DNA from: a virus
Direction: 5' to 3' (one strand)
Virus record (IMG/VR): IMGVR_UViG_3300017788_000140
Location: 1-27,150 of that record
Length of the DNA: 27,150 nucleotides
The notes under the pieces were generated by a model, which made no database searches, was not told where the DNA came from, and saw only the letters and a program-made list of their open reading frames with translations. The first letter of the stretch is position 1. Each line of letters begins with the position of its first letter. Made by a program: the position numbers and the translations under genes. This document shows, piece by piece, positions 1 through 27,150 of the stretch.

Positions 1-1289
1 TAATAGCCAACAGCAATATTATGTGAACCAGTATTTCCTTGGGCACAAAGTGCAAACGCACCCACTGCGGTGTTGTTGACCCCTGTGCTTACGCCAACAG
101 CAGCAAAGTACCCAATAGCAGTGTTGTAGTTGCATTTAGAATGCAGCAGAGCAGCGTGCCCCACTGCGGTATTGAAGTTTCCCGAAGTGTTTCCGTGTAG
201 GGCACAAAAACCTAAAGCATTGTTGGATGCACCGTTTATATTACAATGCAGTGCAAGCGCACCCACTGCGTTGTTGTAAGATCCGGTGGTGTTTGAGTAT
301 AGGGCTAGAGAGCCTATTGCAGTATTGAGCGATCCACTGGTGTTTCCTTGCAGTGCTTGCAAACCAACAGCAGTATTGTTTTGCCCAACGTCGTTGGAAA
401 AGAGAGCAGAGTGCCCCACTGCGGTGTTGTTTACACCGGTTGTATTGCAGTTCAGTGCGAGGCGACCGACAGCCACCAATCGACACCCCGTAGTGTTAAA
501 AACGGCAGCAGAATCACCAATTGCGGTGTTTTCGCTTGTGGTGTTACAGAGCAGTGCATTAGTACCAACAGCAGTATTTCGTATACCAACACTGTTGGAA
601 CACAGTGCGTTAACACCAACCGCAACATTGTTACACCCAGTAGTGTTGGCACACAGTGCCTGCATCCCTACTGCTGTGTTGGATGTTCCACTGGTGTTTG
701 CTTTCAAAGCAAGAGTACCCACTGCGGTGCTGTTTACACCAGTAGTGTTGGCACACAGAGCACACCTACCAATCGCAATATTGTTTGATCCAGATGTGTT
801 GGACAACAAAGATGCAACACCAATAGCAGTATTAGACACGCCTGTAGTGTTGGCAGACAGTGCACTACCACCAACAGCAACGTTGTTGTCTCCAAAGGTA
901 TTGCTCGAAAGAGAATTGCAACCTACTGCGGTGTTGGAAGAGCCGGTGGTGTTTGAACGCAAAGCACAACTACCAACAGCAGTATTACTGTTTGCGTTAT
1001 TTACTGGAAGAGTACAATGACCAACAGCGGTATTGTCTGTACCCAAAGTATTTCCGCAAAGAGCAGACCACCCAACCGCAGTGTTTAAAGAACCTGTGGT
1101 GTTGCAGCACATGGCTAGATCACCAATAGCCACATTTCTACACCCAATAGTGTTTAGTTCTAGCGTTCCATGTCCCAATGCTGTGTTGCTTGCTCCAGTG
1201 GTGTTACTGTGCATTGCACTGGCACCCATAGCAGTATTAAAGCAACCCGTTGTGTTGGCAGTGAGCGCGTCTCTACCCACAGCAACATT
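1..1289 (-). repeat. 51-bp coding tandem repeat of the tail fibre (about 25 units)
   Basis: Reading the minus strand from 1289, units of 17 codons follow one another with consensus N-T-A-V/I-G-x-x-A-L-x-x-N-T-T-G-x-x. I count 25 complete units and a partial 26th. Three units are 16 residues and one is 18. The protein pattern is well kept but the DNA units differ at many synonymous sites, so the array is old and maintained by selection on the protein. Confidence 0.9.
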
Positions 1290-1733
1290 CTGTCGCACAC
1301 CACTGCTTTGTACACCACCACCATTGCCTATAAACACTGAAGACGTGTCACTTTGCACCCCGTTGTGAATGCCAATTCCGTCAATGGTTGCGCCGTTTAT
1401 GACTGTTAGTCTTCCAGCCGCCCACAAATCAGAAGCAAAGGTTGCACCACGCGAAATGTACGCAAACGAACCACTTAATCCCGCAGAAAAACCAACAAAC
1501 CCGTAAAAGGTGTGACCCGTGCTATTAATGTTTGGGGTCAAGAACGCAGACCACACTCCAGCAGTGGTGTATGTGGCTCCTACTGTACCACTGTCAACTG
1601 CATCGTAAATGCGTAACTTGTTTAGTTTGTAGACAGCAGTATTGGTGACATCCTTCCAGTAATTGAAAGTGTCGCTCAATTGTACTTCAGGAATGGTGTA
1701 CGTGTTTAGGTCTGGTCCTGTGCTGCCGGGCAT
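1..1733 (-). CDS. Tail fibre with 17-residue repeats (partial, C-terminus off the left edge)
   Basis: The frame is open from an ATG at 1733-1731 to the window edge, giving 577 codons without a stop. Start support: an AAGGAG ribosome site about 8 bases upstream, and the preceding gene's TGA only 3 bases away. Residues 1-40 (MPGSTGPDLNTYTIPEVQLS, then DTFNYWKDVTNTAVYKLNKL) resemble the N-terminal attachment segment of marine phage fibres. Residues of about 40-148 are Gly/Ser/Thr-rich. From about residue 149 the chain is a regular array of some 25 copies of NTAVGxxALxxNTTGxx. Such repeats are known in proteins annotated as tail fibres and are expected to fold as a stacked beta structure, probably trimeric. 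It is the last visible gene of the baseplate operon, so a host-contacting fibre is the natural role. Twenty cysteines fall in the repeats, which is unusual. The C-terminal tip or chaperone domain is outside the window. Confidence 0.85.
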   Translation of the reverse strand, partial: MPGSTGPDLNTYTIPEVQLSDTFNYWKDVTNTAVYKLNKLRIYDAVDSGTVGATYTTAGVWSAFLTPNINSTGHTFYGFVGFSAGLSGSFAYISRGATFASDLWAAGRLTVINGATIDGIGIHNGVQSDTSSVFIGNGGGVQSSGVRQNVAVGRDALTANTTGCFNTAMGASAMHSNTTGASNTALGHGTLELNTIGCRNVAIGDLAMCCNTTGSLNTAVGWSALCGNTLGTDNTAVGHCTLPVNNANSNTAVGSCALRSNTTGSSNTAVGCNSLSSNTFGDNNVAVGGSALSANTTGVSNTAIGVASLLSNTSGSNNIAIGRCALCANTTGVNSTAVGTLALKANTSGTSNTAVGMQALCANTTGCNNVAVGVNALCSNSVGIRNTAVGTNALLCNTTSENTAIGDSAAVFNTTGCRLVAVGRLALNCNTTGVNNTAVGHSALFSNDVGQNNTAVGLQALQGNTSGSLNTAIGSLALYSNTTGSYNNAVGALALHCNINGASNNALGFCALHGNTSGNFNTAVGHAALLHSKCNYNTAIGYFAAVGVSTGVNNTAVGAFALCAQGNTGSHNIAVGY

Positions 1734-14890: not shown

Positions 14891-15300
14891 CTAGTCCTTT
14901 CGAGAATTATAGTGACTTTTTGTGATTCTCGCACCTCTGCTATACTGTACTCAACCGAAACCATGTACGAATTAGCATCAGGATCAGAAACAACGTCTAC
15001 CAACAGAGTTCCGATTCTAGGCTCGTGTCTGCGAAGTGTTTCTACTATTCTATCTCGGATTTCCAGTGCAGTTACCTCGTCCATAGGCTCAAAAAGTAAA
15101 GCCCGAAGAGAACAACCTAGTCTTGGTTGGAACAAACGCTCTCCAAAAGAAGTATTGAGGAGGTTTCGTATCGACTGCTTTACTGCATTAAGGTTAGTAA
15201 CAAGTAGAGCATCCCCTGTTTTAGGATTGCGATTAAACAAAAAATCCACATCACTGTGTATTGGTGAAGAAGAATTTGTGTTTACTATCCTAACCGGCAC
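14887..15300 (-). CDS. 25: Baseplate wedge subunit gp25 (GPW/gp25 family), GTG start
   Basis: A 137-residue protein of the usual family length (T4 gp25 has 132). It carries the family signatures FGERLFQPRLG at residues 53-62 and the EPR knot motif at 93-95 (RRHEPRI). Gp25 nucleates sheath assembly and locks the wedge core together with gp6 and the gp53 region. The start is a GTG at 15300-15298. It is supported by AAGGGAGA at 15308-15315, 7 bases upstream, and by the absence of a better ATG. The gene begins 16 bases inside the end of the upstream membrane-protein gene, so translation is probably coupled. Confidence 0.95.
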   Translation of the reverse strand: MPVRIVNTNSSSPIHSDVDFLFNRNPKTGDALLVTNLNAVKQSIRNLLNTSFGERLFQPRLGCSLRALLFEPMDEVTALEIRDRIVETLRRHEPRIGTLLVDVVSDPDANSYMVSVEYSIAEVRESQKVTIILERTR

Positions 15301-15980
15301 TGGTCTGTCTCCCTTTGGTTCGTCAGGTGAGCGTTTACGGTTTTGCTGCTGCTTTCTATGACCTGCTCCACCGAATGCTCCGAAATGCCGTCCTTCTCAA
15401 TTTGATCTAGCCCATCAGCAGAACACCACTGGCAGCACACAAATCCTAAAGGCGTTACTCCGTCCATGCACCGCAACGGACTAACAGTAAAGAACAGCAC
15501 GTTATTTATCTCAAAACTTGAACGGAATGCGGACTCAAGCAGCGTCTCTACACGAATAATTCGGTCAGGCGATTGGTCAAGAATACGCACAACATCAATG
15601 TATCGGTTCAGCAGAACGTCCTGTGACTCAATCATCATGCTCTTTACCCCGTTTGCACACGACTCATGGGTAACAGATATGCGCTTAATGGAACTGCCGT
15701 CAGCAAACTTGCCCCCGTTATGAAACTGAAACACCAAGCAACGAGACGCACGAACAGTCACGCGTAGTTCGGTGAGGTGTTCGTGAACGCGGGTGTGGCG
15801 TATCACAGCGTGAGACTCCTCTACCTTGGCTGCTTCTTCTATTTTCTTTTCTGTCTGCTTGCGGTTACGGATCACCCCAACAACACCAATACCGACTCCC
15901 ATTATCAGTACACCCAAAAACTCGCCCCACACAAGCGCAAGGTCTGTTGCTGATTTGAGAAATTCGGTAATGCTGTTCAT
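15285..15980 (-). CDS. Membrane-anchored protein with possible GAF-like domain, unknown role
   Basis: A 231-residue protein not recognised among T4 baseplate parts. Residues of about 17-37 (VWGEFLGVLIMGVGIGVVGV) form one membrane span followed by RNRKQTEKK, so by the positive-inside rule the C-terminal domain should face the cytoplasm. Residues 41-75 are a charged helix. Residues 76-200 hold a compact alpha/beta segment with SRCLVFQFHNGGKFADG at 80-95, THESCANGV, and later NNVLFFTVSPLRCMDGVTPL then GFVCCQWCSADG. This pattern recalls GAF/PAS-type small-ligand domains, but I cannot assign a family. It overlaps the preceding gene by ATGA and gp25 by 16 bases, so it is expressed with baseplate genes. 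Alternatives: a holin-like or lysis-timing protein, or a membrane factor for baseplate assembly. Confidence 0.8.
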   Translation of the reverse strand: MNSITEFLKSATDLALVWGEFLGVLIMGVGIGVVGVIRNRKQTEKKIEEAAKVEESHAVIRHTRVHEHLTELRVTVRASRCLVFQFHNGGKFADGSSIKRISVTHESCANGVKSMMIESQDVLLNRYIDVVRILDQSPDRIIRVETLLESAFRSSFEINNVLFFTVSPLRCMDGVTPLGFVCCQWCSADGLDQIEKDGISEHSVEQVIESSSKTVNAHLTNQRETDQCRLG

Positions 15981-23498: not shown

Positions 23499-24203
23499 AT
23501 GAACAAACTAAATCTTGCTGCTCTACCAGAATACACCATGACTCTTCCCGTGTCGCACCTGACTGTGAAATACCGACCATTTGTAGTAAAAGAAGAAAAG
23601 GTTCTTCTCATAGCACTACAATCGTCAAATCAAAACCAAATAAATGACGCTATTCGTAATGTAGTGTCTGCGTGTACAAAAGGAGTTGTAGACACAAAAA
23701 AATTGTGCACAGCAGACACAGAATACGCATTTCTTCAAATACGCTGCAAATCCGTGGGAGAAGAAGTAAAACCTCAAGTATTGTGCGGAAAGTGCAACCA
23801 ATCAACCAATTATAAGATTCGCTTGGACGAAATCTCGGTTAAACAAACAGACAAGCAGACGACAACTCCCGAAATCAAATTGTCTGACAACATGACAGTA
23901 ATCATGCGATATCCCTCAATGCACGATCTAGACTACAACCTATCAGAGGTTGAGATGGTAATAGAGATGACAAAAAAGTGCATTGAAAGTTTTATCGTAA
24001 ACGAAGAAGTCATACTGTCCAAAGACTTGGACTCGAAGGAGATATCTGATTTTGTAGAGAATCTTCTTCCAGATCAATTTGAAAAGGTAGTTATGTTCTT
24101 CAAATCCATTCCCGAACTAAAGTACTGTTTTTCGTTCAAATGCCCTCATTGTGGGGAACAGAACAAAATAGAATTGGAAAGTGTTACTGATTTTTTTCGC
24201 TAG
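23499..24203 (+). CDS. 26: Baseplate hub / tail assembly protein gp26-like, zero-frame product
   Basis: A 234-residue protein of the T4 gp26 baseplate family (T4 gp26 has 208). Signatures: LPVSHLTVKYRPFVVKEEKV near residues 17-36, LLIALQSSNQNQINDAIRNV, CTADTEYAFLQIRCKSVGEE near 69-88, and the cysteine pairs CGKC near 95 and CPHC near 214, which could jointly bind zinc. The C-terminal helices (IEMTKKCIESFIV, FEKVVMFFKSIPEL) are also typical. Gp26 is required for hub assembly, and its place before the tape measure gene suggests a tail-assembly chaperone role. A 38-base gap, the longest in the window, precedes it, with GAGGAT as ribosome site. The last codons are GAT TTT TTT CGC TAG, which form a strong -1 slippery site leading into the short downstream frame. 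Confidence 0.9.
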   Translation: MNKLNLAALPEYTMTLPVSHLTVKYRPFVVKEEKVLLIALQSSNQNQINDAIRNVVSACTKGVVDTKKLCTADTEYAFLQIRCKSVGEEVKPQVLCGKCNQSTNYKIRLDEISVKQTDKQTTTPEIKLSDNMTVIMRYPSMHDLDYNLSEVEMVIEMTKKCIESFIVNEEVILSKDLDSKEISDFVENLLPDQFEKVVMFFKSIPELKYCFSFKCPHCGEQNKIELESVTDFFR

Positions 24204-24228
24204 CCCTCTGCCATAACACGTTGGGGGC
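24191..24228 (+). promoter_or_regulatory. Programmed -1 ribosomal frameshift signal
   Basis: The heptamer T TTT TTT at 24191-24197 is phased with the gp26 frame exactly as X XXY YYZ. After a 5-base spacer containing the gp26 TAG, GCCCTC (24203-24208) can pair with GGGGGC (24223-24228), giving a 6-bp stem with one G-U pair and a 14-base loop. GGAAAG at 24176-24181 could act as the upstream stimulatory ribosome contact known from dnaX. The minus-one frame is blocked by TGA at 24188 just before the slip site, so it can only be entered here. Confidence 0.72.
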
Positions 24229-24385
24229 ATATTTCCAATTAAACTTTGATCTAATGCAGCACCACAACTACTCCTTGGAGGAGGTAGAAAACCTAATTCC
24301 TTGGGAGCGAGAAGTCTACATAACCCTGTTGATGAACTATTTGAAAGCAGAGAAAGAACGAGTTCGTAAACGGAAAGGATCCTGA
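24197..24385 (+). CDS. Frameshift extension of gp26 (short tail-assembly chaperone domain, gp51-position)
   Basis: The -1 frame is open for 62 codons from the slippery site to TGA at 24383. It encodes SLALCHNTLGAYFQLNFDLM, then QHHNYSLEEVENLIPWEREV and YITLLMNYLKAEKERVRKRK. The NYSLEEVENLIPWEREVYI pattern, followed by a charged helix, resembles the short helical domains encoded between hub/chaperone genes and tape measure genes in T4-like phages, where gp51 acts. The only in-frame ATG (24254) has no ribosome site and would cut off the YFQLNFDL part, so production as a gp26 fusion of about 296 residues is the better reading. This parallels the G/GT pair of lambda, where the frameshifted product loads the tape measure. 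Whether separate initiation also occurs is unknown. Confidence 0.72.
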   Translation, partial: SLALCHNTLGAYFQLNFDLMQHHNYSLEEVENLIPWEREVYITLLMNYLKAEKERVRKRKGS

Positions 24386-24392
24386 TTTTTTT

Positions 24393-24419
24393 GCCATGAA
24401 TGAAGGATAAACACATGGC
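24393..24419 (+). promoter_or_regulatory. Possible start-codon hairpin before the tape measure gene
   Basis: GCCATG (24393-24398) is the inverse complement of CATGGC (24414-24419), with a 15-base loop. The loop contains the AAGGAT ribosome site (24403-24408), while the ATG at 24415 is within the stem. A four-codon frame ATG AAT GAA GGA TAA starts at 24396. The hairpin could damp or time translation of the large gene. The stem is only six base pairs. Confidence 0.4.
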
Positions 24420-27150
24420 TACAGGTAACGAGGTATATCAGCAACTAATTGCAGACGCAAACGAAGCGTTTCAGTACGCAGAGCGTGTTCTTGAAAAAGC
24501 ACGTAAGGGTCGTAACCCAAACGGAACTTACATAGCGGCAACCGCAAGACCTCGCGCAGTTCGTGCAGCAGAAAAACAAGTAGCCAAGGCAGAAGCCGCT
24601 ATTCTTGCTGCGTATAAAACCGCAAACGACTACGACACAAAACAAAAGGCTAAAGCCGAACGCGCAGCGGAACGAGAACGTGCCAAAGCCGAACGCGCAG
24701 CGGAACGAGAACGTGCCAAAGCCGAACGCGCTGCGGAACAAGAACGTGCCAAAGCCGAACGCGCAGCGGAACGAGAACGTGCCAAAGCCGAAAAGAACCG
24801 TCTGAACACACCATCATCAGAAACACAAACACCGAATAGCGAAGTAGACGAAGTAGAAGTAAGTGGAGACGAGGGCGAGAGGAGCGAGGGGACAGCGACT
24901 TCTGAAAATAAGTCAGTGTTGCTAGAGGCACTGAAGTCAAGACGTGCTGAACTAGGTTCTGACACAGAACTAGAAACTGTAGTTTTGGGTTCAGAAGAAA
25001 ATGTTGGATTGCGAGACATAGCCCAAAAATTCATAAACGAAAATCCTTCTCTATTTGATGCAGAAAAACTTTCAGGTCTTGCAGCCAGAGAACTAATACA
25101 ACAAGCGGTTACTTTATCCGAAGACGCACTAGAAGCAACAGATTCTAGAACCGCTTCGGTATACTTGGTAAGACTAAAAAGTATACTAAAGATTGCAAAG
25201 TCTGCGAAAGGATCCATAGCAGACGCCACAGCAGAACAGATAGAATCTCTACTAACTCCAGTAACCAAGGTATTGGAAAAGAAAACCACATTCCAAGCAA
25301 GAATAAAAGAGAATATCAAAGACTACCTGATTACCCTCCCTGAAAGACTGTTGGCTAACATTCCTGTTGTTGGTGGATTGCTTTCGGAAACAGCAAAGCG
25401 AAAAAGAGAACAAAAAGAATCAGAAGAACAGTATTTGGGTGCATTGGGTAAAAGAATTTCAAGAAGAGCAAGCGGAAATATAAGCGGTTACTTGGATTTC
25501 CCAGGACAATTTGCCAAGAGAACAAAGAAAACTGCAACAAGTGTATCTGAAACACTGAATCCCAGTAACAGCGTTATACCCTTCCCTCGTACCGCACAAT
25601 ACGCAGAACAAACAATACCGTCTTCTATACCAAATACAGCACCAATATCTGCTGTATCATCACCAAAAAATGGTGGCACACCTGTTACATTTGAAACCAC
25701 GCCACTGTTGAGTGTTCTCAAGCAAATATTAGAAACACTGCGAGGTGGCAAAACTCCGATTGCGACAGAATCAACCTCCGCAGGAACAAGTATTAGCGAA
25801 CTTGGTGGTCAGGAATATGGATCTCAAGCAGAATCACCAACAGAAGCACTCAACAGCATAAGTGCAGCAATCGGAAACAGAGGAACAACAAAAGACGGAA
25901 CCATTTTAGGGTACTTGAAAAAACTCATAGAAGAAAAAATGGGAGTTGGCGAAGGAAGTGAAGGAGAAAGTAGTGGACCACTATCTTTTCTGTCAGATTT
26001 ACTACCCAGTTTTGGAAGAAGAAGTCGAATTGGTCGTTTGTTCCGAAAAGGAAGAATACTCACTAAACGCAGTTTTGGAAGGAGAAGTCGAATTGGTCGT
26101 TTGTTCCGAAAAGGAAGAATACTCACTAAACGCATAGCGTCAAAATTACGTGCTTCTCGATTGGGAAGAATGACAGGAAGAGCATTTGGTGCTGCCCGAG
26201 GTTTGGGTAGTCGTGCATTTGGTGCTGCCCGAGGTTTGGGTAGTCGTGCATTTGGTGCTGCCCGAGGTTTGGGTAGTCGTGCATTTGGTGCTGCCCGAGG
26301 TTTGGGTAGAGGTCTACTAGGAGCCGCTAAAGAAATGGGCAGCAAAGCAGTGGGATTGGCAAAATCTGTGGTTCCATCAGCAACAAAAGCATCAGGAGGA
26401 TTCTTTTCGTCTATAGGAAAAGGAATTTCTGGTGCATGGGGGTCTGTTGCAGAAACTGCGGCAAAATTGAATCCAATAAAGGCGGCATCGGACGCAGTAA
26501 AGAGCGGAGCAGGAAAAATAGTAAAGGCGATCATATCCATTCCTGGTCTTGGTGCTGCTATCAGTGCTGGAATAGGAGTAATGGACATTATGAATATCAA
26601 AAATGACCAATCACTTACTCCAGAAGAGAAAAAAGAAGCAATTGGAAAAAGTTTGGTTGGAACTTTAGGATCTGCTCTTGGGAGTGTTGGCGGTGGAGCA
26701 CTCGGAACTCTAATACCTGTACCAGTTTTGGGTACAGTTTTGGGTTCTATGGGAGGCGCACTCGCAGGAGAATGGTTGGCAGGGCAACTGGCAGAATCAA
26801 TCGGAGGCAGAGGAATTTATGATTTAGTAGAATCAATTCCTGGTATAGGAAGCACAATCGCTGTTGATTCCCAATCCGAAGCAATGAACCCTCAATCTCA
26901 AGCAAATGAGGTTGATGGAACTATACAAGGATCAAACACAAACACATACTCTTCTCAAAACACGTCATCTTCTAACGTAACAGAAGGAAAACTTCTACCC
27001 ACGGGTACAAATCCGCAAAGTGAAGTCGGAAAACAGGTTGCTGCAACTGCCGGTGCTAGAAATGAACTCTCTGAAGTCACTTCTCAGTCGGTACAATCTC
27101 AAGGAGGAGCAGTTCTGAACACCAACTCTACCTCCAACACAAACATCTCA
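24415..27150 (+). CDS. Probable tape measure protein (partial, C-terminus off the right edge)
   Basis: The frame is open for 912 codons from ATG 24415 to the window edge. AAGGAT lies 6 bases upstream. An in-frame ATG at 24400 lacks a ribosome site. Residues 1-125 are Ala/Glu/Arg/Lys-rich helix with four 11-residue repeats at 80-123. Residues 125-330 are helical and acidic. Residues 330-530 are Ser/Thr/Pro-rich. Residues 532-573 hold two copies of a 21-residue cationic unit, and 590-633 four copies of AFGAARGLGSR. Residues of about 704-725 and 745-795 are Gly/Ala-rich hydrophobic helices that could enter a membrane. Large size, helix and repeat content, hydrophobic segments and the position right after a frameshifted chaperone pair all point to the tape measure (T4 gp29 role, though T4 gp29 has only 590 residues). 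A peptidoglycan hydrolase domain could follow beyond the window. No sequence family is recognised. Confidence 0.72.
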   Translation, partial: MATGNEVYQQLIADANEAFQYAERVLEKARKGRNPNGTYIAATARPRAVRAAEKQVAKAEAAILAAYKTANDYDTKQKAKAERAAERERAKAERAAERERAKAERAAEQERAKAERAAERERAKAEKNRLNTPSSETQTPNSEVDEVEVSGDEGERSEGTATSENKSVLLEALKSRRAELGSDTELETVVLGSEENVGLRDIAQKFINENPSLFDAEKLSGLAARELIQQAVTLSEDALEATDSRTASVYLVRLKSILKIAKSAKGSIADATAEQIESLLTPVTKVLEKKTTFQARIKENIKDYLITLPERLLANIPVVGGLLSETAKRKREQKESEEQYLGALGKRISRRASGNISGYLDFPGQFAKRTKKTATSVSETLNPSNSVIPFPRTAQYAEQTIPSSIPNTAPISAVSSPKNGGTPVTFETTPLLSVLKQILETLRGGKTPIATESTSAGTSISELGGQEYGSQAESPTEALNSISAAIGNRGTTKDGTILGYLKKLIEEKMGVGEGSEGESSGPLSFLSDLLPSFGRRSRIGRLFRKGRILTKRSFGRRSRIGRLFRKGRILTKRIASKLRASRLGRMTGRAFGAARGLGSRAFGAARGLGSRAFGAARGLGSRAFGAARGLGRGLLGAAKEMGSKAVGLAKSVVPSATKASGGFFSSIGKGISGAWGSVAETAAKLNPIKAASDAVKSGAGKIVKAIISIPGLGAAISAGIGVMDIMNIKNDQSLTPEEKKEAIGKSLVGTLGSALGSVGGGALGTLIPVPVLGTVLGSMGGALAGEWLAGQLAESIGGRGIYDLVESIPGIGSTIAVDSQSEAMNPQSQANEVDGTIQGSNTNTYSSQNTSSSNVTEGKLLPTGTNPQSEVGKQVAATAGARNELSEVTSQSVQSQGGAVLNTNSTSNTNIS
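24652..24783 (+). repeat. Four 33-bp tandem repeats encoding an 11-residue coiled-coil unit
   Basis: Four adjacent 33-base units encode KAERAAERERA, at residues 80-123 of the probable tape measure. Units 1, 2 and 4 are identical at the DNA level. Unit 3 differs at two bases (GCA to GCT, CGA to CAA). Nine bases of a fifth unit follow. An 11-residue period fits a hendecad coiled coil. Codons GCG, GCC and CGC are commoner here than around it. Confidence 0.93.
26008..26133 (+). repeat. Two 63-bp tandem repeats encoding a 21-residue cationic segment
   Basis: Two adjacent 63-base units differ by one base (AGA to AGG) and encode the same 21 residues, starting SFGRRSRIGRLFRKGR. Nine of 21 residues are Arg or Lys, spaced with Ile, Leu and Phe, so each unit could form a cationic amphipathic helix. 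The near identity shows a recent duplication. Confidence 0.93.
26182..26313 (+). repeat. Four 33-bp tandem repeats encoding AFGAARGLGSR
   Basis: Four adjacent 33-base units. The first three are identical in DNA and the fourth differs only in its last codons (Gly-Arg-Gly instead of Gly-Ser-Arg). Each encodes an 11-residue unit, the same period as the block at 24652-24783 but unrelated in sequence. The units lie at residues 590-633 of the probable tape measure, 48 bases after the cationic repeats. Confidence 0.93.

Follow-up and report, generated by a model that had tools for sequence, protein, structure and literature searches.

Organization of the gp26-type locus

The window analyzed in this study is a 27,150-nucleotide stretch of viral DNA (positions 1 to 27,150 of IMG/VR record IMGVR_UViG_3300017788_000140) that carries a T4-like tail module. 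Homologues of head closure, DNA end protector and tail tube proteins are encoded on the plus strand 5′ of a gp26-type gene, and the baseplate genes reside on the minus strand. Among the latter lies a 231-amino-acid ORF (15285-15980, minus strand) that has a membrane-type segment at its N-terminus as well as an FQFHNGG motif and matches only the families phrog_30125 and phrog_14038, both of unknown function. An open-ended ORF at positions 3-1733 (minus strand) carries many repeats of the type N-T-A-V/I-G-x-x-A-L that resemble trimeric adhesin head repeats, and it probably encodes a tail fibre or adhesin.

The gp26-type ORF ends with the codons ACT GAT TTT TTT CGC TAG, and the features that surround this 3′ end are listed in Table 1. 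Because a TGA triplet closes the −1 frame directly 5′ of the T run, this frame opens only at the putative slip site and cannot be entered from an upstream start codon. The same opening of 10 nucleotides, comprising the −1 frame TGA and the heptamer, is common to most relatives. Within the −1 frame, the earliest potential starts are TTG (codon 9) and ATG (codon 20, position 24254). A first-pass annotation of this DNA had read these features as a programmed −1 frameshift that fuses the gp26-type protein to a short C-terminal domain (domain 2). The phase of the seven-T run, the TGA that precedes it and the 62-codon −1 frame that lacks a usable start of its own were all recognized correctly. The spacer of five bases was also correct, but the TAG codon that had been placed within it runs on into the stem.

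Table 1. Features at the 3′ end of the gp26-type gene and in the region that follows
Feature	Position	Strand	Remarks
gp26-type gene, short form (TAC-N)	23499..24203	+	234 aa; two CxxC zinc-ribbon-like motifs; ends ...DFFR*
−1 frame TGA, immediately 5′ of the putative slip site	24188..24190	+	
Putative slippery heptamer T_TTT_TTT, in zero-frame phase	24191..24197	+	read GA[T TTT TTT] CGC TAG
5-nt spacer CGCTA	24198..24202	+	
Zero-frame stop TAG, ends the short form	24201..24203	+	straddles spacer and stem
6-bp stem-loop, candidate frameshift stimulator	24203-24208 with 24223-24228	+	GCCCUC/GGGGGC
−1 frame C-terminal domain (TAC-C, 'gp51' domain; domain 2)	24197..24385	+	62 codons (24197-24382), TGA 24383-24385
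Large ORF 3′ of the domain, putative tape measure protein	24400..27150	+	runs past window end; at least 917 codons

The large ORF that follows domain 2 has its likelier start at ATG 24415, which is preceded by GAAGGA. We infer that it encodes the tape measure protein from its position, its size, its Ala/Lys/Glu-rich repeats and a weak glycine-zipper match; a family search with this ORF returned no match naming a tape measure. Near-perfect in-frame tandem repeats of 33 bp and 63 bp are present at positions 24652-24792, 26007-26134 and 26182-26309, and recent changes in these repeats would alter tail length if the ORF is indeed the tape measure gene.

Family identity and predicted fold

The gp26-type protein matches essentially the entire PF12322 (T4_baseplate) profile (positions 2-219 of 219, 1.4e-56), with a score of 192 bits relative to a curated cut-off of 24.5 bits, and also matches phrog_150 (8e-60). 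Domain 2 matches phrog_634, a family labelled 'baseplate hub assembly catalyst' (3.6e-25), and weakly matches the C-terminal end of phrog_150. A sub-threshold Pfam match of the 62-amino-acid domain to Stealth_CR2 (0.067) was treated as chance.

An AlphaFold model of the gp26-type protein has a pLDDT of 88. The best solved fold for residues 1-86 is that of the HK97 tail assembly chaperone (2ob9), which aligns over 85 of 107 residues and shares 11% identity with the gp26-type protein. This chaperone ranks first of 998 aligned chains with a Z score of 7.1, the next chain scoring 5.1, although a value below 8 is insufficient on its own to establish a shared fold. Domain 2 is predicted to be helical (helices 2-22, 27-31 and 35-61); a fold search with this domain alone gave no strong match (best Z 3.5), and a PDB sequence search with profiles of gp26 and domain 2 gave nothing meaningful.

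Conservation of the heptamer and of the reading-frame relation

Relatives of the locus were collected from IMG/VR (80 sequences, with gp26 identity as low as 36%), and 78 of these reach the junction between the two coding regions. Domain 2 lies in the −1 frame in every one of the 78 independent loci that carry both parts. An in-phase T_TTT_TTN heptamer is present in 65 of 65 sequences checked (52 non-redundant sequences comprising the window and IMG/VR loci, plus 13 named phages), 0 to 24 nucleotides 5′ of the zero-frame stop codon. The 65-sequence set spans cyanophages and phages of Methylophilales, rhizobia, Pseudomonas, Stenotrophomonas, Aeromonas and Vibrio, and the conservation of the heptamer that the first-pass annotation had proposed to check at homologous loci is seen in all of these sequences.

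The heptamer is not expected to arise by chance, because an in-phase T_TTT_TTY occurs only once in the 8303 codon positions of the other ORFs in the window; it occurs twice in 11805 codon positions of gp26 bodies. No variation occurs in the ten bases GATTTTTTTC among 30 sequences compared from the window's clade. Third positions in the last 60 gp26 codons of this clade differ in 57% of pairwise comparisons, which is near saturation, and in the same genes GAT accounts for 47% of Asp codons and TTT for 57% of Phe codons. The product probability calculated for the heptamer is tiny, but it was not taken as a P value since the sequences share ancestry.

Since the frame break falls within a homopolymer, a single gene might have been split falsely by a sequencing or assembly error, or might be decaying as a pseudogene. 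However, the same frame relation recurs in 78 independent contigs and in 13 named phage genomes, and the −1 frame is under strong coding constraint. Conservation across the 78 loci rules out an assembly error, and we regard the probability of this explanation as a whole as negligible.

Homopolymer runs can also cause slippage by RNA polymerase. If the polymerase adds or drops a U at the seven-T run (24191-24197), some mRNAs would encode the fusion in frame. Many other clades, however, carry only six T nucleotides followed by C or G, which is short for polymerase slippage. What is retained is the in-phase X_XXY_YYZ form rather than the length of the run, and in the window's clade a stem is located downstream at a spacing typical of ribosomal frameshifting. 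Transcriptional slippage is therefore extremely unlikely.

Coding pattern of the −1 frame upstream of internal start codons

Domain 2 could instead be a separate small gene whose translation begins at the internal ATG (24254) or restarts at a start codon overlapping the gp26 stop. It is annotated as a separate gene in syn9 (gp13, 'T4 gp51-like'), C48C1, Melnitz-1 and phiM7. An ATG at codon 19 or 20 is frequent among relatives, and stop-overlapping ATG codons (TAATG or TGATG) exist in Schizotequatrovirus, Menderavirus, Pootjesviridae and Vibrio ackermannviruses. However, the codon-20 ATG is absent from seven relatives (L010, L033, L036, L052, L054, L090 and L126). Among these, no start codon of any kind is found within the first 30 codons of the −1 frame in L090 and L126, and no ATG, GTG or TTG is found before about codon 33 in L033 or codon 44 in L036. 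In the window, a search 5′ of ATG 24254 revealed no Shine-Dalgarno-like sequence.

The 18 codons between the slip site and the common ATG have a coding pattern in the −1 frame. Sequences differ here by 0.166, 0.153 and 0.444 at the first, second and third positions of the −1 frame, respectively, and this third-position excess indicates that codons 5′ of the ATG are translated. The residues they encode are conserved as a −1 protein with the pattern SxALxHNTLxxYxxxNF. Furthermore, a separate gene would leave conservation of the heptamer without purpose, even though the heptamer is kept in lineages that carry TAATG or TGATG (L089, L121, L124 and L125), and in T4 gp51 the domain is truly fused at the same point. 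Given the lack of a conserved start and the −1 coding upstream of the ATG, we reject a separate gene as the general explanation and consider it very unlikely.

Homologues bear on the frameshift proposal in two further ways. Domain 2 is in the gp26 frame in none of the single-copy group, and an in-frame fusion was observed only as the second paralogue of T-even-type phages, in agreement with the first-pass reading. A few lineages carry the stop-overlapping ATG, a possible separate start, in addition to the heptamer.

Domain 2 is unannotated in S-MbCM100 and ACG-2014b and is begun at an internal ATG in syn9. Cyanophage records in our collection miss the −1 domain or start it internally (L083:1505-1684, L084:1505-1684 and L085:1552-1695). 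Many genome records thus omit or mis-start the second domain, indicating that annotation pipelines miss the frameshift.

A candidate stimulatory stem-loop in the window's clade

Stimulators of −1 frameshifting are expected about 5-9 nucleotides downstream of the slip site, and the stem in the window begins at 5 nucleotides. Its predicted stability is −12.1 kcal/mol, with a z score of −1.6 for the 35-mer and a non-significant −0.4 when 65 nucleotides are folded. The 6-bp stem has 92.7% of its cells paired across the window's clade, with a single covarying pair (a C-G to G-C double change), and shuffle and slide controls favour the stem with modest support. In other clades it is missing or weak. 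Another stem occupies almost the same position in three relatives (L033, L036 and L052), and most sequences from cyanophages and from Vibrio and Aeromonas phages form weak structures only. The stem-loop proposed in the first-pass annotation can form, but its restriction to one clade and its weak covariation led us to reject it as a universal element. It is plausible as a candidate clade-level stimulator.

Lineages with other arrangements

In the Ackermannviridae (SeSz-1 and 15 relatives), domain 2 also lies in the −1 frame, which is open from before the gp26 stop codon, and no ATG, GTG or TTG is found in this frame for about 10 codons after that stop. The heptamer is replaced by GAG/GAA ATT TTC ATT TAA. 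Loci of this type that lack the canonical heptamer are L086:3290-3340, L093-L107, L091:3155-3175 and L123:1900-1920. A −1 domain in the absence of a canonical heptamer would imply an unusual shift site or a coupled restart. Two Vibrio phages of the same branch, 1.255.O and K441, carry CTT TTY together with TAATG; no relatives of K441 gp26 were found in IMG/VR.

Schizotequatrovirus, Menderavirus and Pootjesviridae carry both the heptamer and an ATG that overlaps the gp26 stop. The heptamer accompanies TAATG or TGATG at L089:2486, L121:1962, L124:1890 and L125:1207. Since the two elements coexist in several lineages, both a fusion and a free domain 2 could be produced. A broader proposal, that the gp26/gp51 locus uses more than one route to domain 2 (fusion, free domain, unusual shift or restart, and gene duplication), strikes us as tentative and rather unlikely. 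If true, the locus would present a natural range of different ways to set a single protein ratio.

Relation to T4 gp26 and gp51

PF12322 covers both T4 gp26 (residues 1-206 of 208) and T4 gp51 (residues 1-201 of 249). The C-terminus of gp51 matches phrog_634 and aligns to domain 2 where a frameshift would join the two coding regions elsewhere. Therefore, T4 gp51 is a gp26 paralogue with domain 2 fused in frame, and T4 gp26 carries neither the domain nor the heptamer. The 3′ end of T4 gene 26 reads GAG TTC TTT GAG TTA CTA TAA, with TTC TTT in place of the heptamer, and gene 25 follows.

Two PF12322 copies are present in all six T-even-type genomes (T4, Apostate, leB, Whisky, G004 and G005), and a single copy is present in each of the 17 other genomes. 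T-even-type two-copy loci in our collection are L082, L130, L131, L132, L117 and L120. An unrooted tree places gp26 and gp51 of the T-even-type phages in one cluster (96/96 support), separate from the single-copy phages. These data fit a gene duplication in the T-even lineage that took the place of the frameshift.

T4 gp26 is thus the homologue of the short form and T4 gp51 the homologue of the long form, and because these paralogues both match nearly the full PF12322 profile, T4 keeps the two forms as two genes. T4 differs from the window in that its paralogous genes are on opposite strands, the heptamer is lost, and gene 25 rather than a tape measure gene follows gene 26. The first-pass annotation was correct in describing gp26 and gp51 of T4 as separate, but its description of them as hub genes requires correction. 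Both proteins have been described as chaperones of hub assembly, and the particle lacks gp51 even though this protein is required (PMC3004832). The name tail (tape-measure) assembly chaperones suits the two proteins better than that of hub parts.

Proposed expression and function of the two forms

Conservation of the heptamer, its phase and the frame relation, coding constraint in the −1 frame, the lack of a conserved start, copy-number complementarity with T4 and the best fold match all point to a chaperone pair resembling lambda G/GT. The match to the HK97 tail assembly chaperone, the listing of T4 gp26 and gp51 as chaperones and the position before the probable tape measure gene likewise point to a short and a long chaperone. 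On the strength of these comparisons, in which every test agrees with the G/GT-like strategy of the first-pass annotation, we consider it very likely that this T4-like phage makes its pair of tail assembly chaperones from the locus, as a short form and a −1 frameshifted long form.

Ribosomes very probably slip back by one base at the seven-T run to yield the longer tail-assembly helper. We infer that most ribosomes would stop at the TAG at 24201 and release the 234-amino-acid short form. A minority would slip on T_TTT_TTT, probably aided in the window's clade by the stem-loop 5 nucleotides downstream, and then read 62 codons to produce a long form (TAC-NC) of about 295 amino acids with a helical C-terminal domain. 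The predicted fusion across the slip junction in the window is ...DFFSLALCHNTLGAYFQ. If the pair acts as lambda gpG/gpGT do, the N-terminal part common to both forms would coat the product of the neighbouring tape measure gene, tail tube subunits would be recruited by the rarer C-terminal domain, and both forms would leave before the tail is completed. T-even-type phages would make the same two products from two genes, the short one from gene 26 and the long one from its paralogue, gene 51.

Comparison with known chaperone systems

Vladimirov, Gautam and Davidson (2022, Virology 566:9-15) reportedly found conserved frameshifting in several groups of T4-like phages, with T4 itself using genes 26 and 51. 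A search of the literature found no papers that join the term 'baseplate hub assembly catalyst' with frameshifting.

Articles that cite this work (Vladimirov et al., 2022; PMID 34826709) mention polyT slippery sequences in the TAC-N genes of T4-like phages (PMC12846349), and some T4-like phages in which a short gene is accompanied by a longer fusion gene (PMC10885494). Judging from these citing articles, the link between T4-like phages and the general chaperone scheme, which the first-pass annotation had put forward and which our data support, was already published in 2022 (PMID 34826709) and is not new.

Production of a short chaperone and an extended form by −1 frameshifting is known from lambda gpG/gpGT and analogous systems (Levin 1993; Xu 2004, 2013, 2014; reviewed in PMC5009743), and T4 was named as an exception to the G-T scheme in 2016 (PMC5009743). 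Like lambda G/GT, the window locus appears to encode a short form and a C-terminally extended form from adjacent frames, although our searches found no sequence relation of the gp26 locus to lambda gpG/gpGT. The gp26-type protein differs from these chaperones in its larger size (234 aa), its zinc-ribbon-like CxxC motifs and its shift site, T_TTT_TTT. Its top structural match, the HK97 chaperone 2ob9, corresponds to residues 1-86, and the rest of the protein, about 150 residues that include the zinc-ribbon region, extends beyond this match.

As represented in PMC10885494 and PMC12846349, the T4-like chaperone genes of Vladimirov et al. (2022) differ in nothing essential from the window locus, whose clade carries a stem-loop immediately 3′ of the slip site. 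The locus thus appears to be a further case of the published arrangement, and a clean and widely conserved one. It connects gp26 and gp51, poorly understood hub proteins of T4, with the general scheme of tail chaperones in long-tailed phages.
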